Of a DNA stretch of 38,662 nucleotides, positions 13,469-36,055 are shown one piece after another; within the stretch, counting starts at the first letter, position 1, and every line of letters starts with the position of its first letter. A program made the translations under genes and the position numbers. The DNA is from Roseateles toxinivorans (lineage in GTDB: Bacteria; Pseudomonadota; Gammaproteobacteria; Burkholderiales; Burkholderiaceae_C): positions 1-38,662 of the forward strand of contig CAMDHE010000035.1 of NCBI GenBank assembly GCA_945898095.1, given 5' to 3'. The notes below the pieces were generated by a model that did no database searches, was not told the DNA's origin, and saw only the letters and a program-made list of their open reading frames with translations.

Positions 13469-13521
13469 AGGGAGATGCTCCTGTGTCCGCTGTCGCGGCA
13501 ATTGATCCGTTGTGACAAAAC

Positions 13522-19736: not shown

Positions 19737-19779
19737 GCTGACCATCCCCTATGCCTGCCGCCACCCGGCGACAAAAAAG

Positions 19780-21192: not shown

Positions 21193-23136
21193 ATGGCTTT
21201 CATTCATCAACGCAAACCCCGCATCTGTGTGCTGACCTACAAGGCCTTGACGCGATTGCTGCGCCATGCCGAGAGTCGGGTGCGCGATCGCGCCGAGATC
21301 ATCGTCGACGAATACACGCTGGAGGATGCAGTGCTGCGCGGGCGCCAGATGCAGCAACGCGGTGATATCGATGTGCTCGTCAGCGCCGGCTCGATCGCCG
21401 TGATGCTGAGATCGCAACTGGATTTGCCGGTCGTCAGCATCGAGGTCACCGGCTTTGACCTGCTGCTGGCATTGCAGCGGGCGCGTCAGCTGTCATCCCG
21501 GGTCGGGATGGTGATCTTCCGCGAGACCATGCCCTTGCTCGACTCGGTCAAGGACCTGTTGAAAGTCGAGCTGTTCCAGTTCAGCTATGAAACCCTGGCC
21601 GAGGCGCGCGGGCATTTCCAGACCTTGATGGCACAGGGCATCGAGGTGGTGGTGGGTTCGAGCCTGATCGTCGATCTGGCCGAGCAGAATGGCTTGCATG
21701 GCATCCTCATCTACAGCAATGACTCGGTCGAGCGCGCGCTGGAAGAAGCTGTGCAACTGGGCGAAAACGCGATTCGCCAGGATTCGAAATACGAAAACCT
21801 GAATGCCGCTTTTGCCCATTTGCATGAAGCGATCCTGGCTGTCGATATGCAACACCGCATCACGGCGATCAACCCGCTGATGCGGCGGATTCTCGGCCTC
21901 GATGCAAGCAGCCCGATCGGCTTGCGCTTGCCGGATCTGGCCAGCGAGTTGTCGCTGGCCTCTGTTTTGGCCGGGCAGGACGATGACCTGGACATGGTGA
22001 TCCAGCTTGGGCGCAGCAGCTTGCTGATGAACCGCACCGCGATCCATGAGCGCGGCAGCATCACCGGCGCTTTGCTGACCTTGCGCGACACCAGCGCGAT
22101 CCATCGCGCCGACACGACGATCCGATCGCAGCGCCGGCCCAAGAGCGTGGCAGCGCGCTACAGCTTCGATCTGATCACCGGCAACAGCCCCGCGCTGGCC
22201 TATGCCCGGGGCGTGGCCGGGCGCTGCGCCAGGACCGCCTCGACCGTGTTGATCACCGGCGAAACCGGCACCGGCAAGGAGTTGTTCGCACAGGCGATTC
22301 ACAACGCCAGCGAACGCCAGCGCGGGCCATTCGTGGCGCTGAACTGCGCTTCATTTCCTGAGTCACTGCTCGAGAGCGAGTTGTTCGGCCATGAAGAAGG
22401 CGCCTTCACCGGCTCGCGCAAAGGCGGCAAACCCGGCTTGTTTGAAGCAGCCCATACCGGTACGGTTTTTCTGGACGAGATCGGCGATATGCCGATCTCC
22501 TTGCAGACCCGCTTGCTGCGGGTATTGCAGGAGCGTGAGGTTGTTCGTCTAGGCAGCAATGCACCGATCGCGATCGACGTGCGAGTGATTGCCGCGACCC
22601 ACCGCTCGCTTGAAAACCGCATTGCCGAAGGCCTGTTTCGCGCTGACCTGTTCTACCGGCTGAACATCCTGCTGGTCTCGCTGCCGCCGCTGCGCGAACG
22701 ACCCGAGGATCTGCATGCCTTGGCAAGCCAGTTGCTCGAAGCCAAGCTGCTCGAGCTGGGCAGTACCTTGTCGGCCGAGCCCTTGCTCTTGCCGCTGCTG
22801 CCGCTGCTGCGTCAGTACCGTTGGCCCGGCAATATCCGCGAGTTGGAAAACCTGATGGAACGCTTCGCTGTGTTCCTGTTCGGCCTGCCCGAGTCGGGCG
22901 AGGTCGAGTATTCGCTGTTCCTGCGCGAGGCGCCCGAGCTTGCACAGGGCTTGATCCCTGAGTTGACTGCGGCTGTTGAGGAGGAAGCTCCGGTCTTGCT
23001 CGATGACGCGCGCATTCTGGCGGCGCTGCAGGCCGCCAAGGGTAGCCGGCAGGGCGCAGCCCAGGCGCTTTCGATCAGCCGCACAACGCTGTGGCGCCGA
23101 CTCAAGGAGATCGAGGCCCTGGACCGCTCGCTTTGA
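21193..23136 (+). CDS. PrpR-type sigma-54-dependent transcriptional activator
   Basis: A 647-residue enhancer-binding protein. The N-terminal PrpR_N sensor spans about residues 10-190 (DVLVSAGSIAVMLR, LPVVSIEVTGFDLL), a PAS-like domain about 200-305, and the AAA+ domain about 322-550 with Walker A GETGTGKE at 356-363, the sigma-54-contacting GAFTG at 403-407 and Walker B VFLDEIGD at 425-432. A Fis-type helix-turn-helix ends the protein (GAAQALSISRTTLWRRLKEI). PrpR itself senses 2-methylcitrate; the ligand here may be a related acid. It diverges from the CpeT-like gene, which has a sigma-54 promoter. Confidence 0.92.
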   Translation: MAFIHQRKPRICVLTYKALTRLLRHAESRVRDRAEIIVDEYTLEDAVLRGRQMQQRGDIDVLVSAGSIAVMLRSQLDLPVVSIEVTGFDLLLALQRARQLSSRVGMVIFRETMPLLDSVKDLLKVELFQFSYETLAEARGHFQTLMAQGIEVVVGSSLIVDLAEQNGLHGILIYSNDSVERALEEAVQLGENAIRQDSKYENLNAAFAHLHEAILAVDMQHRITAINPLMRRILGLDASSPIGLRLPDLASELSLASVLAGQDDDLDMVIQLGRSSLLMNRTAIHERGSITGALLTLRDTSAIHRADTTIRSQRRPKSVAARYSFDLITGNSPALAYARGVAGRCARTASTVLITGETGTGKELFAQAIHNASERQRGPFVALNCASFPESLLESELFGHEEGAFTGSRKGGKPGLFEAAHTGTVFLDEIGDMPISLQTRLLRVLQEREVVRLGSNAPIAIDVRVIAATHRSLENRIAEGLFRADLFYRLNILLVSLPPLRERPEDLHALASQLLEAKLLELGSTLSAEPLLLPLLPLLRQYRWPGNIRELENLMERFAVFLFGLPESGEVEYSLFLREAPELAQGLIPELTAAVEEEAPVLLDDARILAALQAAKGSRQGAAQALSISRTTLWRRLKEIEALDRSL

Positions 23137-23164: not shown

Positions 23165-24016
23165 TCAATAAGCCTGCGGCGGCACCCAGGGTAGGGCGCT
23201 CAGGTGCGCATATTCGGGTGGCAATACCGGCTGATAAGGCTGATGGAAGTCGAACGGCGCTTCGTCGACGGTCCAGATGTTGACATGGCGGCCGCCGACG
23301 AAACGGATCAGCGCCACGCAGCCCCAGCGGGTACCAAAAGGTCCATGCGGAATGCCCGGCGGACGCCAGAAATAAGCACCCGCATGCATCTCGCCATAGG
23401 GGCCGACCAGCGAGCCGGCGATCACAAAGCATTCCTCGACCACCGGATGCGATTCGCGCGGTCCATGCGAGCCGGGCGGTTCGGAATGCGGCAGCATCAT
23501 CGACAAGAAGGTTCGCTCGCCGCTCACCGGGTCGGCACGCAAGTCCTTGCGCGAGATGCCCAGATGGGCCAGCTTGGCGTCGTTGACCTTCATGTCCCAG
23601 GGCATGTGCAACACATCGCGGTGCAGCAGCGCTTCGCTCGCCGCCGATGTGGCGCTGCCTTCGGCATGGAATTCCGGCTGCGCATCAAAGAAAGTCAGCA
23701 CCACCGCACCGCTTCGGGTCGACATCGAGTGGCGCAGCGCCTGCTTCGGGATATGCCCGTAATGGTCGGCCTTGTAGACCAGCCCGTTGACTTCGATCTC
23801 GCCCTCAAGCACATAGAACTCTTCGGTCGCATCGAGGTATTCGTCGGCCAGCCTTGCCCAGCCCGGCGCATAGCGGATCAAGCAGGTGCAAGCGCCGTCA
23901 TCCGGGTCGCGGCTGAGGAACTTGTATTCGGCGTCCGGCCTGGCTGCGCCGGGCGGGATGCGTCGCCAAGGCAGCATCTGCGACTGGACGAATTCGGTGT
24001 GTGGGCGCTTGAGCAT
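23165..24016 (-). CDS. Double-cupin protein
   Basis: A 283-residue protein with two cupin-like modules. The first contains DEYLDATEEFYVLEGEIEV and later HSMSTRSG; the second contains HPVVEECFVIAGSLVGPYG, GAYFWRPPGIPHGPFG. The histidines and glutamates of these motifs could hold a metal in each barrel. Cupins of this type may be dioxygenases, isomerases or simple binding proteins; nothing here decides between them. Its ATG overlaps the LeuD stop by one base (TGATG), so it is the last gene of the long leftward operon. Its 3' end faces the sigma-54 activator gene 28 bp away. Confidence 0.78.
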   Translation of the reverse strand: MLKRPHTEFVQSQMLPWRRIPPGAARPDAEYKFLSRDPDDGACTCLIRYAPGWARLADEYLDATEEFYVLEGEIEVNGLVYKADHYGHIPKQALRHSMSTRSGAVVLTFFDAQPEFHAEGSATSAASEALLHRDVLHMPWDMKVNDAKLAHLGISRKDLRADPVSGERTFLSMMLPHSEPPGSHGPRESHPVVEECFVIAGSLVGPYGEMHAGAYFWRPPGIPHGPFGTRWGCVALIRFVGGRHVNIWTVDEAPFDFHQPYQPVLPPEYAHLSALPWVPPQAY

Positions 24017-24657
24017 CAGCCGGCCTGGTGCAGATAAATCCAGGGCCGGGCTTTGCGGTCCTCGGCCTGGAAGGCATCGATCGCGGGGCTCAGCGCCAGG
24101 GTCAGCGCGATCGGGTCGAGCCCCTTGAGCAGCATCTCGCGCTGGCTGGCGGCCAGGCTGAAGGGGTAAGAGCGGCCCTGGGCATCGCTGAGACTATTGC
24201 GTTCAAGATCGACCCTCAGACGCCTTGTCTGCGGATCAGCGGCGCTGCTGCTGGCGAGTTCGGCAATCTGGCCCTCGCTCAGCACCAGCGGCAGCAAACC
24301 GTTCCTGACGCAGTTGCCCGCAAAAATTGCGCCGAAGCTGGGTGCCACGACGACGCGAATGCCGTATTCCTTGAGCGCCCAGACCGCATGCTCGCGCGAC
24401 GAGCCGCAGCCGAAGTTGATGCCTGCCAGCAAGATCGAGCTGCCCTGCTGCTCGGGCCGGTTCAGCACGAAGTCGGGGTTGGGTTGACGGGTCTGCACAT
24501 CCAGATAGCGCCAGCCGGCGAACAAGCCGCCGGCCAGGCCGGTCTTGGAAACAGTCTTCATCTCGCGCGAGGGGATGATCGCGTCGGTGTCGATATTGCT
24601 GCGCAGCAGGGCCGCCGCCACGCCTTCATGGGTGATGAACTTGTCCATCTCAGTCAT
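24016..24657 (-). CDS. LeuD-like aconitase-superfamily hydro-lyase, small subunit
   Basis: A 213-residue swivel-domain subunit. NIDTDAIIPSREMK at 21-34 and GINFGCGSSREHAVWALKEYG at 79-99 are the substrate-binding signatures of LeuD-type proteins. Partnered with the adjacent large subunit it should reversibly hydrate a cis-configured di- or tricarboxylate. No other leucine-biosynthesis gene is nearby and the neighbours are catabolic, so the substrate is more likely an alkyl-maleate or related acid than isopropylmalate; this is inference. It overlaps the LeuC gene by 8 bp. Confidence 0.88.
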   Translation of the reverse strand: MTEMDKFITHEGVAAALLRSNIDTDAIIPSREMKTVSKTGLAGGLFAGWRYLDVQTRQPNPDFVLNRPEQQGSSILLAGINFGCGSSREHAVWALKEYGIRVVVAPSFGAIFAGNCVRNGLLPLVLSEGQIAELASSSAADPQTRRLRVDLERNSLSDAQGRSYPFSLAASQREMLLKGLDPIALTLALSPAIDAFQAEDRKARPWIYLHQAG

Positions 24658-26062
24658 CTTGTAGCTGGCGGGGATCGGCGATGCAGCCCGCGATGGCCGA
24701 AGCCGCCACGGTCACCGGGCTGGCCAGATGGGTACGGGTCAGCGGCCCCTGGCGGCTCTCGAAGTTGCGGTTGGTCGTGCTCACCACGCGCTGCTGATGG
24801 CCAAAGCTCTCGCCGCCGGCGAAGAAGCACATCGAGCAGCCCGACTCGCGCCACTCAAAACCGGCGTCGATAAAAACCTGGTCCAGGCCTTCGGCCTCGG
24901 CCGCGCGCTTGACCTGGGTCGAGCCCGGCACGCAGATCGCCTTCACGCCGGCAGCGACCTTGCGCCCGCGCAGCAGCTCGGCCGCAGCGCGCAGGTCGGA
25001 GATCCGGCTGTTGGTGCAAGAGCCGATGAAGGCCGCGTCGATCGGCAAGCCGGCCAAGGCCTGCCCCGGCAGCAAGTCCATATAGGCCAGCGCCTTTGCC
25101 ATCGCCTGGCTTGTCGCTGCGTCGCTGACTTCGGCCGGATCGGGCACCCGCTGATTCACCGCCACCGCATGCTGCGGGCTGGTGCCCCAGGTCAGCATCG
25201 GGCTGAGGCGGCTGACGTCCAGGCGGGTCTCGAAATCGAACTGCGCATCGGCGTCGCTGTGCAGCTCGCGCCAGGCCTCAAGCGCTTGCGTCCAACCCTC
25301 GCCTTTGGGCGCGAAGGGCCGGCCCTCGAGATAGTCGAAGGTAGCTTGATCGGGTGCGATCAGGCCGGTGAAGGCCGAGAACTCCACCGCCATATTGCAC
25401 AAGGTCATGCGCGCTTCCAGGCTCAGTTCTTGCACGGCCTGGCCGGCAAACTCGGCCACTGAGCCTTGGGCGCCCGAGGCGCTGTCGCGTGCGATCAGGG
25501 CCAGGATCATGTCCTTGGCGCCCACGCCGGGCGGCAAGCTGCCGTCGAAGGTGACGCGCATCGACCGGGGCTTGACGATCCTGAGCGTCTGCGTGGCCAG
25601 CGCATGTTCGGCCTCCGAGCTGCCGATGCCCCAGGCCAGCGCACCGAGCGCGCCCTGGGTGCAGGTGTGGCTGTCGGCGCAGACCATTGTGGCGCCCGGC
25701 AGCACGATGGCCAGCTCGGGCGAGACCACATGCACGATGCCCTGGCGCGCATCACCCAGGTCAAACAGCTGGATGCCGTTGCGCCTGGTTTGCTCGCGCG
25801 TGATGCGGATGAAGGCCTCGCCGCCGGGCATCAAGGTCTTGTCGCTGCGGCCGGGCAAGGTGTCGACGATATGGTCCAGCGTCGCAAAAGCCAGTTGCGG
25901 GTTGCGCACCGCGTACCCGGCCTCGTCCAGCGCCTGCAAGGCCACACCGCCGGTGCGTTCATGCAAGAAGATGCGGTCGATGTGGATCAGGCTCGCGCCG
26001 TCAGCCAGTTCGCTGATGCAATGCTGGCGCCAGAGCTTCTCGAACAGCGACAGACCGCTCAT
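24650..26062 (-). CDS. LeuC-like aconitase-superfamily hydro-lyase, large subunit
   Basis: A 470-residue protein of normal LeuC length. VCADSHTCTQGALGALAWG at 128-146 and the three Fe-S ligands Cys349 (GSCTNSR), Cys409 and Cys412 (SGCSMCFF) are present, so a 4Fe-4S cluster is expected. After the last cysteine the usual LeuC 'LAMN' is replaced by FFAGG, a small divergence near the active site. Family members act on isopropylmalate, citramalate, homocitrate or dimethylmaleate. Its ATG overlaps the CaiB stop (ATGA); an in-frame extension to 27271 exists only because the CaiB gene lacks stops in that frame. Confidence 0.9.
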   Translation of the reverse strand: MSGLSLFEKLWRQHCISELADGASLIHIDRIFLHERTGGVALQALDEAGYAVRNPQLAFATLDHIVDTLPGRSDKTLMPGGEAFIRITREQTRRNGIQLFDLGDARQGIVHVVSPELAIVLPGATMVCADSHTCTQGALGALAWGIGSSEAEHALATQTLRIVKPRSMRVTFDGSLPPGVGAKDMILALIARDSASGAQGSVAEFAGQAVQELSLEARMTLCNMAVEFSAFTGLIAPDQATFDYLEGRPFAPKGEGWTQALEAWRELHSDADAQFDFETRLDVSRLSPMLTWGTSPQHAVAVNQRVPDPAEVSDAATSQAMAKALAYMDLLPGQALAGLPIDAAFIGSCTNSRISDLRAAAELLRGRKVAAGVKAICVPGSTQVKRAAEAEGLDQVFIDAGFEWRESGCSMCFFAGGESFGHQQRVVSTTNRNFESRQGPLTRTHLASPVTVAASAIAGCIADPRQLQDD

Positions 26063-27243
26063 GGCCTGATCACGCCTTGCTCGACCAGGGCGTCGATCTC
26101 GGCCGGGCTCAAGCCCCGCGCCAGCAACAACTCGCGGCTGTTGGCGCCGATCTGCGGCAGGTCGTGGCGCAGGCCGAAGCGCCGGCCCGCCATCTCGATC
26201 GGCAAGGCCGGCAGCTTGGTCGTCCGGCCGTCCTGCAGCGTGATGCCCACCAGTCCCCCGGCGGCGTTCAGGTGCGGGTCGTCGAACAACTCCTCGGGCT
26301 TGGCAATCGGCGCGAAGGGCAGACCGGTCGCCTCGAGCTGGGCCATCAGGCCGGCCTTGTCCAGCCGTTTGAAGCGCTCGCGGATCACCGGGATGGTGCG
26401 CTCGCGTTGGCGGACCCGTTCGGTGTTCTTGGCCAGCGTCGGGTCGGCGAGGAATTCGGCCAGCCCGAAGGATTCGCAGAACTTGCGCCATTGCGTATCG
26501 CTGACGACGGCGGCAAAGACACGCTCGCCGTCTGATGTCTCGAACACGTCGTAGACCGCCCAGGCCGACTGGCGCACCGACATCGGCGGTGCGGCCTTGC
26601 CGGTCGCGGCGAACTGCGCCATATGCTGACCCACCAGGAAGGCCGTGGTCTCGTACAGCGAGGTCTTGACATATTGGCCCAGGCCGCTGCGGCGGCGCTG
26701 CTCGAGCGCGCCCAGGATGCCGATCACGCCGAACATGGCGCCGGTCACGTCGATCACCGAGGCACCAGCGCGCATCGGCTTGTCCGGCAGGCCGGTCATA
26801 TAAGCCAGGCCGCCCATCATCTGCGCGACTTCGTCCAGCGCGGTGCGGCTCTCGTAAGGCCCGCTCAGAAAGCCCTTGCCCGAGCAGTAGATCAGCCGCG
26901 GGTTGATCGCAGCCAGCGCTTCGTAGCCAAAGCCCAGCTCGTCCATCGCGCCACCGCGGAAGTTCTCGATCAGCACGTCGGCATCGGCCAGCAAGTCCAG
27001 CACCACCTGGCGTCCGGCGGCGGACTTCACATCGATCGCCAGGCTCTTCTTGTTGCGGTTGTACATCGCGAAGTAGCCCGCGCCCGAGCCGGTCAGGCGG
27101 CGCGTGTTGTCGCCCTCGACCGGCTCGACCTTGCTCACCTGCGCGCCCATATCGGCCAGGATCAGCCCGATGCTGGGGCCCATCACCATATGGGTGAACT
27201 CGATCACCTTGAGGCCCGCCAGGGGCAGTTCTTGTTCGGTCAT
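26059..27243 (-). CDS. Class III (CaiB/BaiF) CoA-transferase
   Basis: A 394-residue family III CoA-transferase. The N-terminal LKVIEFTHMVMGPSIGLILADMGAQVSKVE is typical, and Asp137 in TALDEVAQMMGG occupies the place of the catalytic Asp of formyl-CoA transferase. It forms interlocked dimers and moves CoA between acids, usually from succinyl-CoA or acetyl-CoA. Placed between LeuC and an HMG-CoA-lyase-like gene, with ATGA overlaps on both sides, it probably activates the hydroxy acid made by the LeuCD pair, as succinyl-CoA:citramalate CoA-transferases do. Confidence 0.9.
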   Translation of the reverse strand: MTEQELPLAGLKVIEFTHMVMGPSIGLILADMGAQVSKVEPVEGDNTRRLTGSGAGYFAMYNRNKKSLAIDVKSAAGRQVVLDLLADADVLIENFRGGAMDELGFGYEALAAINPRLIYCSGKGFLSGPYESRTALDEVAQMMGGLAYMTGLPDKPMRAGASVIDVTGAMFGVIGILGALEQRRRSGLGQYVKTSLYETTAFLVGQHMAQFAATGKAAPPMSVRQSAWAVYDVFETSDGERVFAAVVSDTQWRKFCESFGLAEFLADPTLAKNTERVRQRERTIPVIRERFKRLDKAGLMAQLEATGLPFAPIAKPEELFDDPHLNAAGGLVGITLQDGRTTKLPALPIEMAGRRFGLRHDLPQIGANSRELLLARGLSPAEIDALVEQGVIRP

Positions 27244-28196
27244 TGATGTTGTTTTGTTGTTGCAGGGACAAAGCCCAGGGGCAGGCCGGCCAGCGGCGTC
27301 ATGCCGTAGAGCGGCTCGCCGGGTAGCGCGGCGCTGACGATCTCGCGCACGGCAAACAAGGCGTCGAGGTCGATGCCGGTGCGCAAGCCCATCGCTTCGA
27401 GCATGAAGACCAGGTCTTCGGTGACGATATTGCCGCTGGCGCCGGGTGCGAACGGGCAGCCGCCCAGGCCGCCCAGCGAGGCGTCGATGGTGGTCAGGCC
27501 CATGTCGAGCGCTGCCACCACATTGGCCAAGCCCTGGCCGCGGGTGTTGTGCAGGTGGATGCCACTCAGTTGATCGCGCCCGACGGCAGACCAGATCGAC
27601 TTGATCAAGCGCTTGACCTGGGCCGGATTGGCGTAGCCGGTCGTGTCCGACAGCCCCACCTCGTCGCAGCCGGCCTCCATCAGCGCGACGGCCAACTCGA
27701 CCACGCGCTGCTCGGGCACCACGCCTTCAAGCGTGCAGCCAAAGGCCGTCGACAGGCTGCCCTCGAAATGCGGGCGCTGGCCGGCCGGCAAGCTCTTGAT
27801 CAGCGCGGCGATCTGGCGCACCTCGTCGAGCATCTGGGCGTGATTGCGGCGCAGATTGCGCAGGCTGTGTGTCTCGCTGACCGACAGCGGGAGGGTGAGC
27901 TTGTGCGCGCCGCTGGCCACTGCGGCCTGCGCGCCCTTGAAGTTGGGCACCAGCACGGCCACGCTCAGGCCGGCGATGGTCAACGCATGGGCGACCAGTT
28001 CGGCCGTGTCGGCCAACTGCGGCAGGATATGGGCCGGAACGAAGGAGCCGACCTCGATCTCGGGCACACCGGCTGCGGCGGCCGCCGTTACCCAGGCCTT
28101 CTTCGCGGCCAGCGGCATGATGGCCTGGATGCTTTGCAGTCCGTCGCGCGGGCCGACTTCGCTGACCAGCACATCGCGCTTGGGTGCATTCGTCAT
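27240..28196 (-). CDS. HMG-CoA lyase-family enzyme (possible citramalyl-CoA-type lyase)
   Basis: A 318-residue TIM-barrel lyase. SEVGPRDGLQ at 12-21, the metal-binding His pair in HLHNTRGQGLAN (His214, His216) and the catalytic-cysteine loop GGLGGCPFAPGASGN (Cys247) are intact. HMG-CoA lyases usually have HxHDT where this has HxHNT, a difference that could reflect another substrate. It should split a 3-hydroxy-acyl-CoA into a keto acid and an acyl-CoA. The ATG at 28196 overlaps the preceding deacetylase stop; its own stop overlaps the CaiB start. Confidence 0.88.
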   Translation of the reverse strand: MTNAPKRDVLVSEVGPRDGLQSIQAIMPLAAKKAWVTAAAAAGVPEIEVGSFVPAHILPQLADTAELVAHALTIAGLSVAVLVPNFKGAQAAVASGAHKLTLPLSVSETHSLRNLRRNHAQMLDEVRQIAALIKSLPAGQRPHFEGSLSTAFGCTLEGVVPEQRVVELAVALMEAGCDEVGLSDTTGYANPAQVKRLIKSIWSAVGRDQLSGIHLHNTRGQGLANVVAALDMGLTTIDASLGGLGGCPFAPGASGNIVTEDLVFMLEAMGLRTGIDLDALFAVREIVSAALPGEPLYGMTPLAGLPLGFVPATTKQHQ

Positions 28197-29125
28197 GCGG
28201 ACGCTCCCTGCTGCGCTGCGAAGGCATCGATGATCTTGCCGGGTGCGGCCTGCCAGACTTCGCTGGACGCGCTGATATGGGCCAGCACCGCTTCCAGATG
28301 CTTGATCCGGTGCGGTTGTCCCATCACCCAGGGGTGCAGCGACAGCGTCAGCAGCCGCCCGCCCTGGCTGCGCGACTCGGCCAGCAGCAGCTCGAAGGCG
28401 TCGATCACCTGTTCGGCCCAGGAGGCTTCGGCGTGCAAGTTGTCCATCACCACAAAACGGTCCTCGATCTCGGTGGCCAGCGGCAGATTCCACAGATCGC
28501 CGGCCTGGGTGTGGAAGCGATAGGGCAACTCGTCGTTGACCCAGTCGGCGCAGTACTCGATGCCTTCGGCCTTGAGCAGCTCGGGCGTGTTCGGGCTTTG
28601 CAGCTTGCCCGGGCTGAGCCAGCCGCGCACGGCCTGGCCGCTCAATTCGCGCAGGGTGGTCAGCGAGCGCTGCACCAGCGCACGCTCCGCATCGATGTCG
28701 AGGCCGCCCGCATGGGGCGTGTCCATCGACCAGGAATGGCCCAGCCATTCATCGCCGCGCGCAAGGATGGTGGCCGCCAGCGCCGGGTAGCGCAGCGCCA
28801 GCTCAGCGTTGATGGCAAAGCTCGGGCGGATGCCGAATTGGTCAAAGGCGCGCAGCATGCGGTAGATGCCGACCCGGTTGCCATAGTCGCGCAGCGTGAA
28901 ATGGCGCAGGTCCGGATAGGGCATGGTCATGCTGCCGGGCAGCTTCAGCTTGGCCGACGGGTTCATCGGGAAATGCTGCAGGCTGACATTGACCCAGACC
29001 GCCAGGGTCTTGCCGCCGGGCCAATGCAAGGCCGGGCGGTCGGTCAGCATCGACCAGGCATAGCGGTCATGGTCCATGCCGTAGCGGCGCTGGGGGTAGT
29101 CGAGGTGGGCTTGATCGAGCGCCAT
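28193..29125 (-). CDS. PuuE/imidase-like polysaccharide-deacetylase-fold hydrolase, copy A
   Basis: A 310-residue NodB-fold protein. RDYGNRVGIYRMLRAFDQFGI and DEWLGHSWSMDTPH align with the 'EYGSRAG' and 'SHG' blocks of allantoinase PuuE and cyclic imidase. The HG of the metal motif reads HS here, so the metal site may be altered. Relatives open cyclic amides (allantoin, imides) or deacetylate sugars; the surrounding amidase favours a cyclic-amide substrate. The ATG at 29125, 2 bp after its paralogue's stop, replaces a longer frame that would run into that gene. Confidence 0.8.
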   Translation of the reverse strand: MALDQAHLDYPQRRYGMDHDRYAWSMLTDRPALHWPGGKTLAVWVNVSLQHFPMNPSAKLKLPGSMTMPYPDLRHFTLRDYGNRVGIYRMLRAFDQFGIRPSFAINAELALRYPALAATILARGDEWLGHSWSMDTPHAGGLDIDAERALVQRSLTTLRELSGQAVRGWLSPGKLQSPNTPELLKAEGIEYCADWVNDELPYRFHTQAGDLWNLPLATEIEDRFVVMDNLHAEASWAEQVIDAFELLLAESRSQGGRLLTLSLHPWVMGQPHRIKHLEAVLAHISASSEVWQAAPGKIIDAFAAQQGASA

Positions 29126-29127
29126 GG

Positions 29128-30045
29128 TCAGACGCCTCCGTTCTTGAGCGCAATGTCGGCCAGGGCTTCGTCGTGGTGCTGCGCCAGGTAATGCTCGGCG
29201 ATCTCGCGGCCGGTGGTCACCCAGACATCGCTGTGGCCGGTGATATAGGCCAGCGCGTCCTCGAAGGCCTTCAGGCGGTGCGGGCAGCTGACCTGGTAGT
29301 TGTGCGTGGGGATGCACATCACCGTGCCCGACTCGGCCCCTTCGGCGTAGAGCCGGTCAAAGCTGTCCTTGATCATCTGCCCGTAGCGGCGCGGCTCGAT
29401 CTTGTTGACCACATAGGCGATGGTGTCGTTGAGCTCGAGCGAATAGGGCACCGAGACGAAGCGCTGGCCCCCGCGCACGCGCAGCGGTGTTGGCTGGTCG
29501 TCGTGGAACAGGTCGCAGCTGTAGATGCCGCCGAGTTCGGCAAACAAATCGACGGTGACCTCGCTGTGCGACAGCGCCGGGGCCAGATAGCCGACCGGGG
29601 CGCGGCCGGTGTGCTTGGCGATCGTCTCGATCGACTCGAGGATCATCGAGCGCTCCTGCGCCTCGCTCATGCCGTAGGTGTAGCGGGTGTTGTAGATGCC
29701 GTGGCTGAAGAACTCCCAGTCGCGCTCGCGGCACATCTGGATGATCTCGGGGTGGTGCGTGCACAGCGCGGTCGACAGCGAGATCGAGCCGCGCACGCCG
29801 TATTTGTCCAGCAAGGCCATCTGCCGCATATGGCCGACCCGGTTGCCATAGTCGCGGATCGAATAACCGGGCACGGCCGGATAGGGGTGGGGCCAGGCGG
29901 CGCGTGCCGGATTGGCCGGTGGGGCGAGCTCATAGAACTCGATGTTCGGCGCGACCCAGAAGGCCAGCCGGGCGCCCTTGGGCCAGCGGATCTTGGGCCG
30001 GTTCAGGTAAGGCCAGTAGTCGTAATGGCCGGCATCGGCCCTCAT
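29128..30045 (-). CDS. PuuE/imidase-like polysaccharide-deacetylase-fold hydrolase, copy B
   Basis: A 305-residue NodB-fold protein sharing the RDYGNRVGHMRQMALLDKYGV block with copy A. The metal region reads EFFSHGIYNTRYTYG: the first His-Gly is kept, but the second histidine of the classical HxxxH is Thr/Arg. YLAPALSHSEVTVDLFAELG corresponds to the conserved mid-barrel segment. With copy A directly downstream it may form a heteromer or act on successive substrates. Its ATG overlaps the isochorismatase-like gene's stop (ATGA), which supports hydrolysis of a ring and then of the resulting amide. Confidence 0.82.
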   Translation of the reverse strand: MRADAGHYDYWPYLNRPKIRWPKGARLAFWVAPNIEFYELAPPANPARAAWPHPYPAVPGYSIRDYGNRVGHMRQMALLDKYGVRGSISLSTALCTHHPEIIQMCRERDWEFFSHGIYNTRYTYGMSEAQERSMILESIETIAKHTGRAPVGYLAPALSHSEVTVDLFAELGGIYSCDLFHDDQPTPLRVRGGQRFVSVPYSLELNDTIAYVVNKIEPRRYGQMIKDSFDRLYAEGAESGTVMCIPTHNYQVSCPHRLKAFEDALAYITGHSDVWVTTGREIAEHYLAQHHDEALADIALKNGGV

Positions 30046-30716
30046 GCTTGCAGCGCCTGCTGGTCGAGCCAGCCCAGCGTCTCGTGCACGTCGACGATGT
30101 CGGCGTACTTCAGCATCAGGTCGGTCAGGTTGGCGAAGTGATAGGACTCATGCTTGTCGGCCACGCATTGCTCGGGCACGATCGTGCGGTAGCCGCGTGA
30201 CAGCGAATCGACCGCTGCGGCGCGCACGCAGCCCGAGGTCGAGCCGCCGGTGATCACCACCGTGTCGACCTGATGCCAGACCAGCAGCGACTGCAGCGGG
30301 GTCTCGAAAAAGGGCGAAGGCATGCGCTTGCAATAGATCAGATCGTGGCCGTGCGAGATCTCGCAGCGGTCGTCAAACTCGGCCCGGCGCGAGCAATGCT
30401 TGATGTTCTGCAAGGAATCGGGCGTATTGGTGCGTGTGCCCCAGACGCCTGCGTCCTCGGCCGAATCGGCATAAGCCACATGGGTCCAGACCACCGGCCA
30501 GTTCAGTGCCCGAAAGCGCCGGGCCAGGGCATTGACATGCTCGATCTGGCGCGGATCGGTCTCATAAGCGGTCTTGAATTCATCAACCTTGGTGTAAGCG
30601 CATTGGAAGTCGATGTTCACCAGCACCGCCTTCTTGCCATAGCCGAACCGCGCACGCGCCGGGTTGGCCTTGATGTCGGCCCAGATCTCGCGGGCGGTCT
30701 TGTCGGACATTTCCAT
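30042..30716 (-). CDS. Isochorismatase-family cysteine hydrolase (probable amidase)
   Basis: A 224-residue cysteine hydrolase with the full triad: Asp36 (NIDFQ), Lys130 (CKRMPSPFF) and Cys163 (GGSTSGCVRAAAVD). The GGSTSGCVR block is closest to the N-carbamoylsarcosine amidase, maleamate amidase and ureidoacrylate hydrolase group, which release ammonia from an amide or carbamoyl group. In this operon it could deamidate the half-amide formed when a cyclic imide is opened. The ATG at 30716 has GGAG 8 nt upstream; a longer start at 30755 would begin inside a hairpin. Confidence 0.88.
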   Translation of the reverse strand: MEMSDKTAREIWADIKANPARARFGYGKKAVLVNIDFQCAYTKVDEFKTAYETDPRQIEHVNALARRFRALNWPVVWTHVAYADSAEDAGVWGTRTNTPDSLQNIKHCSRRAEFDDRCEISHGHDLIYCKRMPSPFFETPLQSLLVWHQVDTVVITGGSTSGCVRAAAVDSLSRGYRTIVPEQCVADKHESYHFANLTDLMLKYADIVDVHETLGWLDQQALQA

Positions 30717-30742
30717 GTTGGATCTCCAGCTTTGAAATGAGT

Positions 30743-30765
30743 GCAGCCCGGACAAGCCGGGCTGC
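30743..30765. other. Strong intercistronic stem-loop
   Basis: GCAGCCCGG and CCGGGCTGC form a perfect 9-bp stem with a 5-nt loop in the 63-bp gap between the small coiled-coil gene and the amidase gene. No T-run follows on either strand, so it is more likely an mRNA-stability or processing element than a terminator. Its loop side contains TTGTCCGG on the minus strand, half of the operator motif. Confidence 0.6.
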
Positions 30766-30779
30766 TGATGTCGATTGCG

Positions 30780-31184
30780 TCAGTGCTTGCCTTGGTCGTT
30801 GCCCGGCGTGCCCAATTCAGCGGCCACCTCATCGATTGAGGGTTCGGGCGCGCCGGCCATCGCCTGCACGTCCTGGTCGACGATGCGCAGCACTCGGGCG
30901 ATGTAGTCGCGGCCCCAGACATTGCGTGCTTCCTGCACGGCGGCATCGGGCTGGTAGGCCTCGATGTCGGCTGCGCTCAGGATGCCGCGCTGTTCCAGCA
31001 GGCGCTCCAGCGTGTCGATGCGCTCGCGGGCCACCGACAACTCGCCGGCGATGCTCATCGCGATCGACAGCACCCGCTCGACCGCGGGGTCGTCAAAAAA
31101 AACCGGTCGGCGGCCCTTGGCGCGCTGGTTGGCCATCTGCACCGGGTCGAGTTGATCGGGTTCGGGGCGTTGCTGCGCGCTCAT
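30780..31184 (-). CDS. Small coiled-coil protein of unknown function
   Basis: A 134-residue soluble protein that I do not recognise. Residues about 33-75 (VERVLSIAMSIAGELSVARERIDTLERLLEQRG) look like a long amphipathic helix or coiled coil, followed by SAADIEAYQPDAAVQEAR. No cysteine pairs, signal peptide or membrane helix are seen. It overlaps the stop of the methyltransferase gene (ATGA), so it is likely produced with it and may be a partner subunit. Confidence 0.65.
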   Translation of the reverse strand: MSAQQRPEPDQLDPVQMANQRAKGRRPVFFDDPAVERVLSIAMSIAGELSVARERIDTLERLLEQRGILSAADIEAYQPDAAVQEARNVWGRDYIARVLRIVDQDVQAMAGAPEPSIDEVAAELGTPGNDQGKH

Positions 31185-32395
31185 GCGGTGACTCCTGGTT
31201 TGGCTGCACCGAAGGCGGTCCAGCGTGGTGAGCGACCGTAGTCTTCGAGCTTGCCGCCCTCGGTGCCGCCGGCAGCAGGGAATAGCGTGCGGTCGACCTT
31301 GGCCTGCATCGTGGTTTCGAAATAGGAACCGGCCGGGAAGCCACTCTTGGTGATCAGCGCGTCGAGATCGGCCTCATGCATGCGGGTCCAGAACGGCTCG
31401 TTGTTGTTGTAGGTGTCCCAGTCGCGCATGAAGGCCTCGAACGGCTCCATGCCCTGGTACTGCGGCTGCTCCAGGTGCAGCGTCAGCCCGCCCGGCGACA
31501 GCACGCGGTGCACTTCCTTCATGATGCGCGGCATCGCGGCGGTGGAGGTCTCATGCCAGAACATCGCGGTCGTGACCAGGTCGAACTCGCCGTCGGCCCA
31601 GGGCAGACCCTCGCCGTTGGCCTGGCGGAATTCGATATTGTTGACGCCCAGCGAGCGCGCCCTCGCATGGGCATAACGCAGCATCGTTGCGGCGGTGTCG
31701 ATGGCGATCACCTCGGCGTCGGGGAAGGCCTGCGCCAGCGGCACGATGTTGTGACCGATGGTGCAGCCGATGTCGAGGATGCGCTTGGGCGACCAACCCG
31801 GCTTGTTTTTGGCCAGCCAGTCGACCACTGCCTGCCCGCCGCCGTCGGAATAGCTGCCCAGCGCGCCGGCCGTGGTGACGAACAGGCCGGCGTCATAGTT
31901 GGCGCCGGCGGCGATGTCGCGGTCGATGACCTCGGCGTGGTAGCAGCCGGGCATGCAGTGGATGTCCACCGCGGTGGCGTAGCGCGGCGAGCTGATGCTG
32001 GGGTCAAGCTTCAGCGTCGGCGCACCTTCGTTGATTGCATCGGCAATGGTCCGCAGCGCGCCGAGTTGGCGAAACACGACGCTGCGGCCGGCTTGCTGGC
32101 GCTGCTCCATGGTGTTGCGGCGCAGCGCGCTCCAGAGTTGGTAATGCAGGTCCTTTTGCATCGCCTTGCGCACTTCATGTCGATCAGTTGGCGCGCGGCC
32201 ATGCTCGGCGCAGAAGGCCGGCTTGACGCGGCTCTCGTAGGCCAGCTTGACACCCGGCAACACCGACTGCGACAGATGCATATTCAGCCTGGTGAGGAAA
32301 TCGAAGCGTGCGATCTCGTCATGTGTGGCCTGCGGAAAGACGGCATGCTTGCCGACTTGCCGCCAGCTTGGTTGGGGTACTGCGGATTTGCTCAT
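31181..32395 (-). CDS. SAM-dependent methyltransferase-fold protein with N-terminal domain
   Basis: A 404-residue protein. A class I methyltransferase core starts near residue 205 with RILDIGCTIGHN at 206-217 (SAM-binding loop) and VIAIDTAATML (acidic residue after strand 2). GEFDLVTTAMFWHE follows. The N-terminal 190 residues contain HCMPGCYHAEVIDRDIAAGANYD, a Cys/His-containing stretch of unknown role. It heads the long leftward operon directly after a promoter with operator site G. It may methylate the substrate or be a catalytically changed relative; the domain order is unusual enough to leave the reaction open. Confidence 0.8.
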   Translation of the reverse strand: MSKSAVPQPSWRQVGKHAVFPQATHDEIARFDFLTRLNMHLSQSVLPGVKLAYESRVKPAFCAEHGRAPTDRHEVRKAMQKDLHYQLWSALRRNTMEQRQQAGRSVVFRQLGALRTIADAINEGAPTLKLDPSISSPRYATAVDIHCMPGCYHAEVIDRDIAAGANYDAGLFVTTAGALGSYSDGGGQAVVDWLAKNKPGWSPKRILDIGCTIGHNIVPLAQAFPDAEVIAIDTAATMLRYAHARARSLGVNNIEFRQANGEGLPWADGEFDLVTTAMFWHETSTAAMPRIMKEVHRVLSPGGLTLHLEQPQYQGMEPFEAFMRDWDTYNNNEPFWTRMHEADLDALITKSGFPAGSYFETTMQAKVDRTLFPAAGGTEGGKLEDYGRSPRWTAFGAAKPGVTA

Positions 32396-32574: not shown

Positions 32575-32586
32575 TTGTCCGGACAA
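32575..32586. promoter_or_regulatory. GntR operator candidate, site H
   Basis: TTGTCCGGACAA is a perfect 12-bp palindrome and the best copy in the window. It abuts the -10 box of the rightward promoter and lies 34 bp before the TTG start at 32620. Confidence 0.85.
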
Positions 32587-32619
32587 CTATGCGGCTGGCA
32601 TGCCGCGAGAGGACTTGCC

Positions 32620-32925
32620 TTGACCACCTTGATCGTGCTGTTCAATTTGAAGGATTCTGCCGCCCAGCTCGACTACGAGCGCTGGGCGCGCGAGGTCGAT
32701 CTGCCGACAGCAGGCAGTCTGCCTTCGGTCGACCGATTCGAGGTCTTGAGGGCCAAGGGTCTGCTGACCGGCGGGCCGTCGCCCTATGCCTATGTCGAAA
32801 TCCTCAAGATCAACGATATGGCCCAACTCGGTGCTGACATCAGCACCCCGGCGATGCAGGCGATTTCGGCGCAATTCCAGGCCTTTGCCGATGCGCCGAT
32901 GTTCATCATCACCGAATCGCTGTGA
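32620..32925 (+). CDS. Small dimeric alpha/beta-barrel protein (RedY/EthD-like)
   Basis: A 101-residue protein of ferredoxin-like dimeric-barrel type: TLIVLFNLKD, then YERWAREVDLPTAGSLPSVDRFEV and PYAYVEILKINDM. Such proteins include EthD, RedY and other small enzymes or carriers in catabolic and tailoring pathways; an activity cannot be assigned. The TTG at 32620 is chosen because AGAGGA lies 7 nt upstream and the earlier ATG (32575) would lie on the operator. It is the first gene of the rightward operon and overlaps the SDR start (GTGA). Confidence 0.72.
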   Translation: MTTLIVLFNLKDSAAQLDYERWAREVDLPTAGSLPSVDRFEVLRAKGLLTGGPSPYAYVEILKINDMAQLGADISTPAMQAISAQFQAFADAPMFIITESL

Positions 32926-33779
32926 ACCAGGTCATGCAGGGCCGCTACCCTGATCTGGCCGGCAAGGTCGCCATCATCACTGGCGCTGGACGGCGTGGCG
33001 GGCTCGGCGCGGCGATGGCGCAGCGCTTGGCGGCCGAGGGCGCGCGAGTTGTCATTGCCGACATCGGAACGGCAGCCGGCCCGCATCTGCCAGCAGCAGC
33101 AATCGGCGCCAATGCCGAGATGCAGGCTATCGTCGACGAGATCAAGGCTTGCGGCGGACAGGCAATGGCCGTTGCCTGCAATATGCTGGATAGCGCTGCG
33201 ATCAAGAACCTGGTCGCACAGACCGAAGCGGTTTTTGGCGGGGTCGATATTCTGGTCAACAACGCCGGGGTCGGCTATCTGATGAAGCCGATCGTCGAGA
33301 TGTCCCTGGAAGAATGGGACATGGTGCTGGGTGTCAATCTGCGCGGCGTATTCGCTGCGACCCAGGCGGTGGCGATCAGGATGATCAAGCAGGGCCGGGG
33401 CGGCCGCATCATCAATATCGCCAGCCAGGCGGCCAAGTCAGGCTTCGGCATGGCTTCGGCCTATTGCGCGTCCAAGCATGGCTTGATCGGCCTGACCCGC
33501 GTCTCGGCGATCGAGTTGGCAGCGCATCAGATCACCGTCAACGCAATCTGTCCGAACCATGTCACGACCGGACTGGGCGCTTGGCAGAACGAACATTTCG
33601 CCCGCCTTCAAGGCAAGACGGTCGAGCAATACCTGGCCGAAATGGCGGCCCGCATTCCTTTGGGCCGGCCCGGACTGCCGAGCGACATCGCCAATGCCTG
33701 CGCATTTCTCTGCTCCGATCAGGCCCAGTACATCACCGGCGAGGCGATGAATGTCTCCGGCGGTGAGGAATACCACTGA
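32922..33779 (+). CDS. Short-chain dehydrogenase/reductase
   Basis: A 285-residue classical SDR. The nucleotide-binding turn TGAGRRGGLG at 20-29, NNAG at 113-116 and the catalytic Ser168, Tyr181 and Lys185 (SAYCASK) are all visible. Compared with typical 250-residue members it has an insertion of about 25 residues after strand 2 (GPHLPAAAIGANAEMQ). It should oxidise or reduce a hydroxyl/keto group with NAD(P). The start is GTG at 32922, overlapping the previous stop. The following deacetylase-fold gene begins 13 bp later. Confidence 0.9.
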   Translation: MNQVMQGRYPDLAGKVAIITGAGRRGGLGAAMAQRLAAEGARVVIADIGTAAGPHLPAAAIGANAEMQAIVDEIKACGGQAMAVACNMLDSAAIKNLVAQTEAVFGGVDILVNNAGVGYLMKPIVEMSLEEWDMVLGVNLRGVFAATQAVAIRMIKQGRGGRIINIASQAAKSGFGMASAYCASKHGLIGLTRVSAIELAAHQITVNAICPNHVTTGLGAWQNEHFARLQGKTVEQYLAEMAARIPLGRPGLPSDIANACAFLCSDQAQYITGEAMNVSGGEEYH

Positions 33780-33792
33780 AATCTTCAGACCC

Positions 33793-34680
33793 ATGACAAT
33801 GCAGCCCCCCTGGTCCTGGCCCGATGGCGCGAAGCTCGCGCTCTCGATCGTCGTCAATGTTGAGGAAGGTTCCGAGTACAGCGTGGCTGACGGAGACCCG
33901 ATGCCCGAGCCGGTCGATGAACTCGGCGTGACGCTGAAAAAGCCGATCCGCATGCATGGCAACGAGTCGAATTACCGTTACGGCATCAAGGAAGGTGCGC
34001 GGCGCATCGTCGGCCTTCTCGATGCTCACGGAATCCAAGCTACCTGGACTGCGGCTGCGTTGGCGCTGGAGCGCGCGCCCGAGTTGGCGCAAGTGATCCG
34101 GAGCCGCGGCGATGAGGCCTGCTCGCATGGCTGGCGCTGGATCCACCAGTTCCGCCTCAACGAAGCCGATGAGCGTGCCTTCATCCGCCGCGCGGCCGAC
34201 AGCATCGAAGCCAGCACCGGCAAAAGGCCTCTCGGCTGGCTGTCGCGCTATCTGCATACCGAACATACGCGGCGGCTCTTGCAGGAAGAAGGGTTTTTCT
34301 ATCACATGGACGATTACAGCGCCGACACGCCCTTCTGGGATGCGGTGCCGGGCTCCGATCGACCGATGGTGATCATGCCCTATGCCCTCGACTCCAACGA
34401 CATGAAGATGTGGATCTCGCCGGCCTACACACCCGATATGTGGTTGAAATACGCTTGCGATACCTTCGACCAGTTGCTGCTGGAAGCGCAGACCGCGACT
34501 GAGCCGCGGCTGATGTCGCTGGGCCTGCACCTGCGCATCATCGGCCGGCCAGGTCGCATCTGGGCCTTGAAGCGATTTTTCGAGCATGTCGAACAGGCCC
34601 GCGGCGTGTGGATCACGACCCGGATTGCGGCTGCGGAGCATTTCGCTGCGGCCGTGGCTGCACCCGGGCAGCTCAGCTGA
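33793..34680 (+). CDS. PuuE/imidase-like polysaccharide-deacetylase-fold hydrolase, copy C
   Basis: A 295-residue NodB-fold protein and the clearest PuuE-like member here: VNVEEGSEYSVADGD near the N-terminus, NYRYGIKEGARRI, and DEACSHGWRWIHQF, the block that in PuuE reads SHG-x-x-W-I. Family members hydrolyse allantoin or related cyclic amides without the metal set of ordinary polysaccharide deacetylases. It belongs to the rightward operon with CoA-thioester enzymes, so a ring-opening step may also feed that branch. The ATG at 33793 lies after the SDR stop; the upstream in-frame ATG at 33751 overlaps the SDR. Confidence 0.85.
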   Translation: MTMQPPWSWPDGAKLALSIVVNVEEGSEYSVADGDPMPEPVDELGVTLKKPIRMHGNESNYRYGIKEGARRIVGLLDAHGIQATWTAAALALERAPELAQVIRSRGDEACSHGWRWIHQFRLNEADERAFIRRAADSIEASTGKRPLGWLSRYLHTEHTRRLLQEEGFFYHMDDYSADTPFWDAVPGSDRPMVIMPYALDSNDMKMWISPAYTPDMWLKYACDTFDQLLLEAQTATEPRLMSLGLHLRIIGRPGRIWALKRFFEHVEQARGVWITTRIAAAEHFAAAVAAPGQLS

Positions 34681-35513: not shown

Positions 35514-35536
35514 AGCTTGTTTTGGAGAAAAGAGAG

Positions 35537-36055
35537 ATGGTGCAGAACATCAAGAAGGTTGGAGAAAACCGCTTCCGGGAAACTTTCGGACGCCATTACG
35601 AAGAGTTCCATGTCGGTGACATCTATGAGCACCGCCCGGGCCGCACGATCAGCGAGGCCGACAACACCTGGTTCACGCTGCTGACGATGAATACGCATCC
35701 GATGCACTTCGACGCCGAATATGCCAAGGCCTCGGAGTTCGGGCGCTGCATCGTCTGCTCACCGCTGACGATTGCGCTGATCGTCGGCATGAGCGTCAGC
35801 GACGTGTCGCAAAAGGCGATCGCCAATCTCGGCTGGACTGACATCAAGATGACCCATCCCTTGTTCGCCGGCGATACGCTGACGGCCGAATCGCAAGTGC
35901 TGTCCAAGCGCGAGTCGGCTTCGCGCCCGGGCGCAGGCATCGTCAACGTCAGCTCGACCGGGTTCAACCAGCACGGCGTGGTCGTCTGTACCTTCGTCCG
36001 CACCATCCTGGTCGCACGTCAGGGGCATGGCTTCGAAGACAAGGTCGGTTACTGA
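35537..36055 (+). CDS. MaoC-family hydratase (mesaconyl-CoA hydratase-like)
   Basis: A 172-residue hot-dog-fold hydratase. ISEADNTWFTLLTMNTHPMHFDAEYA contains the Asp and His of the MaoC active site (D-x(4)-F-x(6)-H-P-x-H), as in mesaconyl-CoA and (R)-enoyl-CoA hydratases. It should add water to a C=C of an acyl-CoA made by the acyl-CoA dehydrogenase, feeding the CitE-like lyase. GGAGAAA lies upstream of the ATG at 35537; a TTG at 35522 would overlap that site. It overlaps the dehydrogenase start by one base (TGATG). Confidence 0.88.
   Translation: MVQNIKKVGENRFRETFGRHYEEFHVGDIYEHRPGRTISEADNTWFTLLTMNTHPMHFDAEYAKASEFGRCIVCSPLTIALIVGMSVSDVSQKAIANLGWTDIKMTHPLFAGDTLTAESQVLSKRESASRPGAGIVNVSSTGFNQHGVVVCTFVRTILVARQGHGFEDKVGY

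Follow-up and report, generated by a model that had tools for sequence, protein, structure and literature searches.

Gene content of the locus

The analysed window is a stretch of 38,662 nucleotides from Roseateles toxinivorans (GenBank assembly GCA_945898095.1, contig CAMDHE010000035.1), which carries on its minus strand an operon encoding two PuuE-fold hydrolases, an isochorismatase-fold amidase, a LeuCD-like hydratase, a class III CoA-transferase and a 3-hydroxy-3-methylglutaryl-CoA (HMG-CoA) lyase-like enzyme. A preliminary description made from the sequence alone had interpreted these genes as a catabolic route for a substituted cyclic imide. Open reading frames and searches with Pfam and NCBIfam models, for which a score above the curated family cut-off of the model is called over the cut-off, confirmed the genes named there as well as their strand and coordinates. 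Ten minus-strand genes constitute a single operon (23165-32395) with a methyltransferase gene at the 5′ end and a cupin gene as the last one. In 5′ to 3′ order, and followed by the divergent regulator gene, they are:

31181-32395, minus strand: S-adenosylmethionine (SAM)-dependent methyltransferase with an N-terminal extension of ~200 residues (Pfam Methyltransf_25, 81.5 bits)
30780-31184, minus strand: 134-residue protein, partner of the methyltransferase, with which it is co-conserved
30042-30716, minus strand: isochorismatase-fold amidase, proposed half-amidase converting alkylmaleamate to alkylmaleate and NH3 (PF00857, 92 bits)
29128-30045, minus strand: PuuE-fold hydrolase 1 (PuuE-1), proposed cyclic imide hydrolase (PF01522, 34.4 bits; TIGR03212, 122 bits)
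28193-29125, minus strand: PuuE-fold hydrolase 2 (PuuE-2; TIGR03212, 91 bits, below the cut-off)
27240-28196, minus strand: HMG-CoA-lyase-like enzyme (HMGL), proposed alkylmalyl-CoA lyase (PF00682, 151.6 bits)
26059-27243, minus strand: class III CoA-transferase CaiB-1 (PF02515, 362.6 bits)
24650-26062, minus strand: LeuC-like hydratase large subunit (PF00330, 505 bits; NF009116, 699.9 bits)
24016-24657, minus strand: LeuD-like hydratase small subunit (TIGR00171, 211.5 bits, cut-off 116.25)
23165-24016, minus strand: double cupin (PF12973, 65.1 bits, two stretches)
21193-23136, plus strand: PrpR-type sigma-54 activator, divergently oriented (TIGR02329, 543.8 bits, cut-off 499.2)

Seven of the nine gene junctions overlap, by 1-8 nucleotides each, in line with the earlier remark that nearly all genes of the operon do so. 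PuuE-1 and PuuE-2 are 2 nucleotides apart if PuuE-2 starts with the ATG at 29125, and a gap of 63 nucleotides just before the isochorismatase gene is the sole larger spacing. The methyltransferase, the 134-residue protein, the cupin and the regulator had not been listed previously, nor had a CpeT gene and an operon on the plus strand that contains a third gene of the PuuE fold, both described below. The 134-residue protein gave no Pfam match at 0.001; its gene accompanies the methyltransferase gene in 11 of the 11 loci (at least 15 kb) that have the latter. The activator belongs to the PrpR family by its TIGR02329 score and its PrpR_N domain (PF06506, 147.9 bits), scores below the narrower model NF011953 (513.6 versus 703 bits) and is likely the regulator of the pathway.

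A conserved module of amidase and PuuE-fold hydrolases

The amidase combines the isochorismatase-fold Pfam domain with the aspartate-lysine-cysteine (D-K-C) triad, the catalytic triad of isochorismatase-fold amidases. This full triad, already noticed in the preliminary description, is conserved without exception in the 80 family members aligned, a length filter having removed 4 of 84. PuuE-1 and PuuE-2 are 27% identical, and one or both are proposed to act as cyclic imide hydrolases. PuuE-2 had no Pfam match at 0.001. The two best relatives of PuuE-1 in the PDB are the PuuE allantoinase 3cl6, the closest one (E = 4e-28), and an uncharacterised protein. All three PuuE-fold proteins of the window remained below the cut-off of the allantoinase model TIGR03212 (424.6 bits), with 122 bits for PuuE-1, 91 bits for PuuE-2 and 226 bits for PuuE-3 of the plus-strand operon.

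A contig scan confirmed 562 loci with a relative of PuuE-1, the best 80 of which were examined with flanks of up to 10 kb (loci are numbered with L, genomes with G). Of these 80, 76 have a recognisable PuuE-1, 71 a PuuE-2 and 69 the amidase. The comparison of gene neighbourhoods across genomes, put forward earlier as a check on the imide reading, showed that, of the 60 loci in which all three were recognised, 59 carry the genes for the amidase, PuuE-1 and PuuE-2 side by side, in this order and co-directionally. These three genes are a conserved module. By their titles, the best 80 loci include some from Burkholderiales, Rhodocyclaceae, Paraglaciecola, Alteromonas, Microbulbifer, Shewanella, Halieaceae, Halomonas/Billgrantia, Kordiimonadaceae and Emcibacteraceae; the carriers thus span beta-, gamma- and alphaproteobacteria, the last two families being, as we take it, alphaproteobacterial. 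In the order of the window, 22 of 300 genomes, including its own, showed PuuE-1 matches at E ≤ 1e-60. Genes of locus L064 are 97-100% identical to those of the window; L064 comes from an organism close to the window's species and is therefore not independent of it.

Hydratase and lyase genes accompanying the module

The window LeuC scored just under the LeuC equivalog cut-off (TIGR00170, 548.6 versus 560.25 bits) and belongs to the broader subfamily NF009116 (699.9 bits). This is compatible with a function outside leucine synthesis but does not prove it. We propose from this family assignment and the gene context that LeuCD may act as a dialkylmaleate hydratase. HMGL falls into the HMG-CoA lyase subfamily NF004283 (269.2 bits, cut-off 246).

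Three partner sets were found around the module, namely LeuCD with CaiB and HMGL, LeuCD with a PrpB/dimethylmalate-lyase-like protein, and HacAB with glutaryl-CoA dehydrogenase (GCDH). The first set, with LeuC, CaiB-1 and HMGL of the window type over the identity thresholds, accompanies PuuE-1 and PuuE-2 in 5 of the 80 loci (L115, L120, L133, L134 and L143). In Halomonas-type loci the module occurs with LeuDC, a PrpB/dimethylmalate-lyase-like protein, an FAD_binding_2 flavoprotein and a TRAP transporter; the lyase-like gene is present in 7 of 8 flavoprotein loci of at least 15 kb (p = 8e-4). The lyase-like protein of L043, which is below the prpB cut-off, has methylisocitrate lyase (3e-52) and 2,3-dimethylmalate lyase (6e-47) as PDB relatives. 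GCDH, clearly identified (PDB E = 3e-188), occurs in 6 of 7 HacA loci, HacA in 6 of 6 GCDH loci, and a methylisocitrate-lyase-like gene was found in 3 of the 7 HacA loci. In the window genome, a GCDH of 73% identity is encoded elsewhere.

The preliminary description had named hematinic acid, with neither HacAB nor GCDH. Opened and deamidated, hematinic acid is by structure methyl-cis-homoaconitate, whose hydration and cleavage by a methylisocitrate-lyase-like enzyme to pyruvate and glutarate would explain the presence of GCDH. The hydratase and lyase sets of different lineages look interchangeable.

Linkage to CpeT, RCCR and Rieske oxygenase genes

A gene of the window 8 kb from PuuE-1 encodes a further protein of potential relevance for the substrate:

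19833-20876, minus strand: CpeT/CpcT (bilin-lyase) family protein (PF06206, 76.8 bits, cut-off 21)

It is a member of the CpeT/CpcT family with a putative bilin ligand, is the only PF06206 match in the window genome, and its N-terminus resembles a signal peptide as judged by eye. In Burkholderiales the family occurs in 3 of 200 genomes with that of the window among them. Among 26 genomes carrying PuuE-1, 7 of which had been preselected for a CpeT-like match (L105, L106, L119, L120, L121, L133 and L143), CpeT was found in 11, and 9 of these have it on the PuuE-1 contig at a distance of no more than 40 kb. For the 19 carriers that had not been preselected, 4 of 5 CpeT genomes show this linkage.

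A Microbulbifer gene near the module matched the red chlorophyll catabolite reductase (RCCR) family (PF06405, 1e-12). RCCR was subsequently detected in 10 of 31 genomes and in 0 of 14 control genomes, and 7 of the 10 have it no more than 40 kb away from PuuE-1 (G303, G304, G306, G309, G316, G321 and G326), 4 of which were known beforehand, leaving 3 of 6 linked otherwise. The homologue of L206 belongs to the family at 57.3 bits (cut-off 24.9). A profile built from 11 RCCR-like proteins retrieved plant RCCR as its nearest solved structure (5e-23), followed by ferredoxin bilin reductases (2.7e-5 and 5.3e-5); excerpts of a published study place RCCRs as the outgroup to the bilin reductases (PMC10151467).

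One Rieske oxygenase family recurs in six RCCR stretches (L203, L206, L207, L209, L210 and L212), and in G304 (L202) a member is encoded ~17 kb from RCCR; the family was not found in the fetched stretches L200, L204 and L205. Two members were checked and are of the VanA_C type, one with NdmA as its closest solved relative. Within 18 kb, L210 encodes LeuC, LeuD, CaiB-1, HMGL, PuuE-1, PuuE-2 and the amidase at 55-76% identity to the window, thus 7 of the 10 window operon genes, together with the Rieske oxygenase and an RCCR that is cut by the contig end. A plant-type pheophorbide a oxygenase (PaO) near the module was also considered and rejected: the PaO domain PF08417 was found in 7 of 31 genomes, over the cut-off in 3, and in none within 40 kb of PuuE-1. 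One such match (G327:C118:2758-3030, L194; 29.5 bits, cut-off 27) lies on a small unlinked contig of G327, the genome of L064.

Co-occurrence was determined in 293 genomes drawn evenly from the gammaproteobacterial order of G316, with PuuE-1 carriers defined by a match at E ≤ 1e-110. PuuE-1 was found in 20, RCCR in 9 and CpeT in 7 genomes, and every genome with RCCR or CpeT is one of the 20 carriers (Fisher 4e-12 and 2e-9, values that ignore kinship, are uncorrected and come from an order chosen for its known carriers, which limits their weight for a tetrapyrrole link). Without five previously known genomes, 5 of 5 RCCR and 6 of 6 CpeT genomes are carriers (2e-7 and 7e-9); loci already examined may recur among the rest of the sample. 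Newly met genomes showed CpeT at 17 kb and RCCR at 49 kb from PuuE-1 (G432), CpeT at 34 kb (G422) and RCCR at 7 kb (G553). Heme oxygenase served as a control and was present in 51 of the 293 genomes (43 over the cut-off) and in 3 of the 20 carriers (p = 1). A general link to heme turnover was rejected, since heme oxygenase is not enriched in PuuE-1 carriers; a separate check of 20 carriers found it in 4, in G320 ~12 kb from PuuE-1.

Some further genes were observed around RCCR. A family of ~340 residues is often encoded nearby (L087:1131-2099, L115:3807-4916, L134:3571-4581 and L142:8041-9093), and two of its members gave no Pfam match. Structure prediction for this family (F66), which adjoins RCCR, reached a predicted local distance difference test (pLDDT) score of 33. 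The RCCR loci L201, L204-L206, L208 and L209 (e.g. L206:10938-12698) share parts of a block encoding a carbon-nitrogen hydrolase protein, an alpha/beta hydrolase, a distant isochorismatase, an FAD monooxygenase, an aldehyde dehydrogenase and an MFS transporter, which perhaps is part of the missing upper pathway.

Proposed pathway

We consider it slightly better than an even chance that the operon constitutes the lower part of an aerobic pathway for alkylmaleimides released from open-chain tetrapyrroles in chlorophyll or bilin breakdown, with methylvinylmaleimide, ethylmethylmaleimide and hematinic acid as proposed candidate substrates. Whereas gene content, conservation, linkage and co-occurrence are observed, we infer the steps of this pathway from enzyme family and gene context. 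One or both PuuE-fold hydrolases would open the imide to the half-amide, from which the isochorismatase-fold amidase would free ammonia to leave a disubstituted maleate. LeuCD could then add water to give a tertiary alkylmalate, comparable to the action of 2,3-dimethylmaleate hydratase. After formation of the CoA thioester by CaiB-1, the HMG-CoA-lyase-like enzyme would carry out a retro-aldol cleavage to a 2-oxo acid and an acyl-CoA, for example pyruvate and butyryl-CoA or, from hematinic acid, pyruvate and glutaryl-CoA. The divergent PrpR-type activator may sense an alkylated intermediate. Genomically, this imide-to-oxo-acid route is well supported, and it fits because the amidase and the hydrolases travel as a unit that is paired, by lineage, with different hydratase and lyase sets.

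A more far-reaching proposal, which we hold only tentatively and somewhat short of an even chance, is that aquatic proteobacteria possess a complete aerobic route mineralising chlorophyll- or bilin-derived tetrapyrroles. In its upper part, the Rieske oxygenase and the RCCR homologue would act on the tetrapyrrole as PaO and RCCR do in leaves, and further oxidases and CpeT-type binding proteins would lead to single-ring maleimides. The window operons would convert these, ring by ring, to pyruvate, acyl-CoA and glutarate with release of nitrogen, using branches via alkylmaleate, methylhomoaconitate or alkylsuccinate.

The plus-strand operon

On the plus strand, seven further genes were assigned:

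32575-32925, plus strand: HapK/REDY-like protein (PF11639, 48.7 bits, cut-off 25)
32922-33779, plus strand: short-chain dehydrogenase (SDR; PF13561, 187.5 bits)
33751-34680, plus strand: PuuE-fold hydrolase 3 (PuuE-3; PF01522, 38.7 bits; TIGR03212, 225.6 bits, below the cut-off)
34680-35513, plus strand: CitE/citramalyl-CoA-lyase-like enzyme (PF03328, 108.9 bits)
35522-36055, plus strand: mesaconyl-CoA-hydratase-like (MaoC) enzyme (PF19315, 82.6 bits, cut-off 26.5)
36055-37236, plus strand: acyl-CoA dehydrogenase, proposed alkylsuccinyl-CoA dehydrogenase (PF00441, 165 bits)
37233-38390, plus strand: class III CoA-transferase CaiB-2, 30% identical to CaiB-1 (PF02515, 364 bits)

The CitE-like enzyme is below the cut-off of the RipC/Ccl model NF038242, the best of its matches (238 versus 375 bits), and none of 22 NCBIfam matches of the acyl-CoA dehydrogenase exceeds its own cut-off. 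PuuE-3 was found in 9 of the 80 loci, 8 of which, L064 among them, hold all seven genes; all 9 have the acyl-CoA dehydrogenase and 8 have HapK. All seven genes are also present in genomes G069 and G189, along with genes for a VOC protein, an FAD oxidase and a TonB receptor. Judging by the enzyme families, an alkylsuccinate would be activated with CoA, dehydrogenated, hydrated and cleaved. PuuE-3, CaiB-2, the acyl-CoA dehydrogenase, the mesaconyl-CoA-hydratase-like and the CitE-like enzyme would treat the ring-reduced succinimide counterpart in the same manner as proposed for the maleimide.

Alternative explanations

Several observations weigh against a tetrapyrrole origin of the substrates. 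CpeT family membership alone proves no bilin ligand. Two of the three CpeT genomes among the 200 Burkholderiales (G126 and G152) are outside the PuuE-1 list of the larger sample, the CpeT-like match of L121 at BLAST level was not confirmed by a Pfam search of its genome, and CpeT is unlinked to PuuE-1 in G319, G395 and G460 and located on another contig in G324, G463 and G586. RCCR is likewise unlinked in G302, G319, G322, G395, G460 and G500, and the Rieske enzyme resembles VanA/NdmA rather than PaO. The window genome (G000), which is 97% complete, gave no match to RCCR PF06405, to the PaO C-terminal domain or to heme oxygenase, so that the source of its own maleimides is unexplained, and G069 and G189 share its plus-strand operon yet lack RCCR. 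The preliminary description had already included the tetrapyrrole-type imides ethylmethylmaleimide and hematinic acid among its suggested substrates; linkage and co-occurrence with CpeT and RCCR speak for such imides, whereas the lack of RCCR in the window genome and of both families in some carriers speaks against them. The route it had drawn from imide via half-amide, alkylmaleate, alkylmalate and CoA thioester to oxo acid and acyl-CoA fits the gene comparisons, but one direct test, on the CoA branch, showed no significant co-occurrence of LeuC with HMGL (p = 0.49), and that of HacA with ECH did not reach significance either (p = 0.05).

The same chemistry from imide via half-amide and alkylmaleate to cleavage might serve imides of another origin, such as alkylpyrrole or imide natural products, e.g. 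prodiginine-type pigments, or xenobiotic imides. The HapK/REDY gene (PF11639) might hint at prodiginine-type pigments, as this family presumably belongs to prodiginine clusters. Furthermore, RCCR and CpeT are both absent from 7 of the 20 order-sample carriers. In the Halomonas-type loci, a TRAP transporter is encoded and the genes matched include none resembling CpeT. We nevertheless rate this explanation as rather unlikely, given that RCCR (9 of 9) and CpeT (7 of 7) occur exclusively in PuuE-1 carriers among the 293 genomes, that 9 of 11 CpeT and 7 of 10 RCCR genomes from partly preselected lists have the gene no more than 40 kb from PuuE-1, and that RCCR, Rieske oxygenase and window-type operon genes stand together on the 18-kb stretch L210.

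Action of the PuuE-fold hydrolases on ureides, hydantoins or pyrimidine-type rings, which would make the operon a variant of ureide or pyrimidine catabolism, agrees with allantoinase PuuE being the closest solved relative of PuuE-1 and with HyuA- and HyuB-like genes near the module in 4 genomes for each. It appears improbable to us, because a ureide route accounts for neither LeuCD/HacAB, alkylmalate-type lyases and GCDH nor RCCR and CpeT, and an assignment of PuuE-1, PuuE-2 and PuuE-3 as allantoinases was set aside, since at 91-226 bits all are far under the cut-off. We regard it as highly improbable that the hydrolases are polysaccharide deacetylases beside an unrelated citraconate/mesaconate operon. 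Pfam does assign PuuE-1 and PuuE-3 to Polysacc_deac_1, and of the five relatives of PuuE-1 in the PDB three bear the name of a polysaccharide or peptidoglycan deacetylase; the two best are the PuuE allantoinase and an uncharacterised protein, no signal peptide is visible by eye, and the pairing with the amidase is steady, so that plain deacetylase activity was set aside for all three proteins.

Relation to known pathways

Imide catabolism of the Blastobacter/Pseudomonas type employs an imidase and a half-amidase, and its product enters the tricarboxylic acid cycle as succinate or fumarate. The proposed route shares the sequence from imide via half-amide to dicarboxylate, but the window encodes a presumed half-amidase of the isochorismatase fold and additionally a hydratase, a CoA-transferase and a C-C lyase, genes which imply branched (alkyl) maleates. 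The anaerobic nicotinate pathway of Eubacterium barkeri comprises 2,3-dimethylmaleate hydratase and 2,3-dimethylmalate lyase; its LeuCD-family hydratase acting on a dialkylmaleate and its PrpB-superfamily lyase have counterparts in the Halomonas-type loci. Here, in contrast, the carriers are proteobacteria, some with oxygenase-bearing neighbourhoods, the entry would be via an imide, and CaiB and HMGL replace the lyase in the window. The plant PAO/phyllobilin pathway uses pheophorbide a oxygenase and RCC reductase and, to our knowledge, is not known to continue to central metabolites. Related loci resemble it in having a Rieske oxygenase and an RCCR homologue near the operon, but their Rieske protein is VanA/NdmA-like, and the window has neither gene. 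CaiB-2, the MaoC/MC_hydratase protein and the CitE-like enzyme recall itaconate and mesaconate degradation, from which the plus-strand operon differs by a CitE below the RipC/Ccl cut-off and by the additional PuuE-fold hydrolase, acyl-CoA dehydrogenase and HapK.

Judged by titles and the openings of abstracts, searches of the open-access literature listed no description of a bacterial pathway of this sort, and a search there for dimethylmaleate hydratase together with dimethylmalate lyase returned no papers. Excerpts of a leaf study give yearly chlorophyll turnover on a scale of 10^12 kg, report hematinic acid as one of the leaf products and refer to other work in which maleimides were found in lake sediments and senescent leaves (PMC7318184). 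According to the same excerpts, that study itself was unable to detect maleimides, a further point against the tetrapyrrole reading (PMC7318184). Maleimides are also degradation products of bacteriochlorophylls, as stated in part of another report (PMC8669743). The operon combines known catabolic logic in a way for which these searches gave no description, and there is a real chance that it is part of a bacterial route of chlorophyll or bilin mineralisation; what is new here is the probable substrate class, tetrapyrrole-derived imides. With a defined bacterial gene set for pigment fragments, the recycling of pigments by microbes would become directly testable, as would what happens to the nitrogen and carbon involved, and aquatic metagenomes would gain a marker gene for this process.

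Further neighbouring genes

Two more genes of the window have relatives near the module in other genomes:

18138-19745, minus strand: FAD-linked oxidase (PF01565, 111 bits)
12740-13474, minus strand: beta-barrel-like protein (DUF1849-like fold by predicted structure; the predicted start codon is provisional)

Relatives of the oxidase were found around the module in 12 genomes and the family of the 12740-13474 protein in 22, the window included in both cases. A bilin-binding barrel was considered for the latter protein, but its good structural model (pLDDT 89) matches the DUF1849 barrel 6ntr (E = 4e-6) and lends this idea no support.

Genes that by eye resemble the hydantoinase subunits HyuA and HyuB lie near the module in L067, L076, L090, L111 and L117 and are possibly another lactam-opening step. 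A family of small proteins recurs in 4 genomes (L040, L059, L060, L094 and L129); compared with DUF3598_N, its L060 member is under and its L059 member over the cut-off. Another family recurs in 8 genomes (L079, L094, L103, L104, L119, L120, L143 and L171), its L103 member matching DUF1838 (PF08894, 206 bits). Finally, the window contains two GntR-type regulator genes on the plus strand (3476-4252 and 11520-12374), near-identical by eye and ~8 kb apart, which enclose two alcohol-dehydrogenase-like genes and genes for an MFS transporter, a VOC protein and a TonB receptor.

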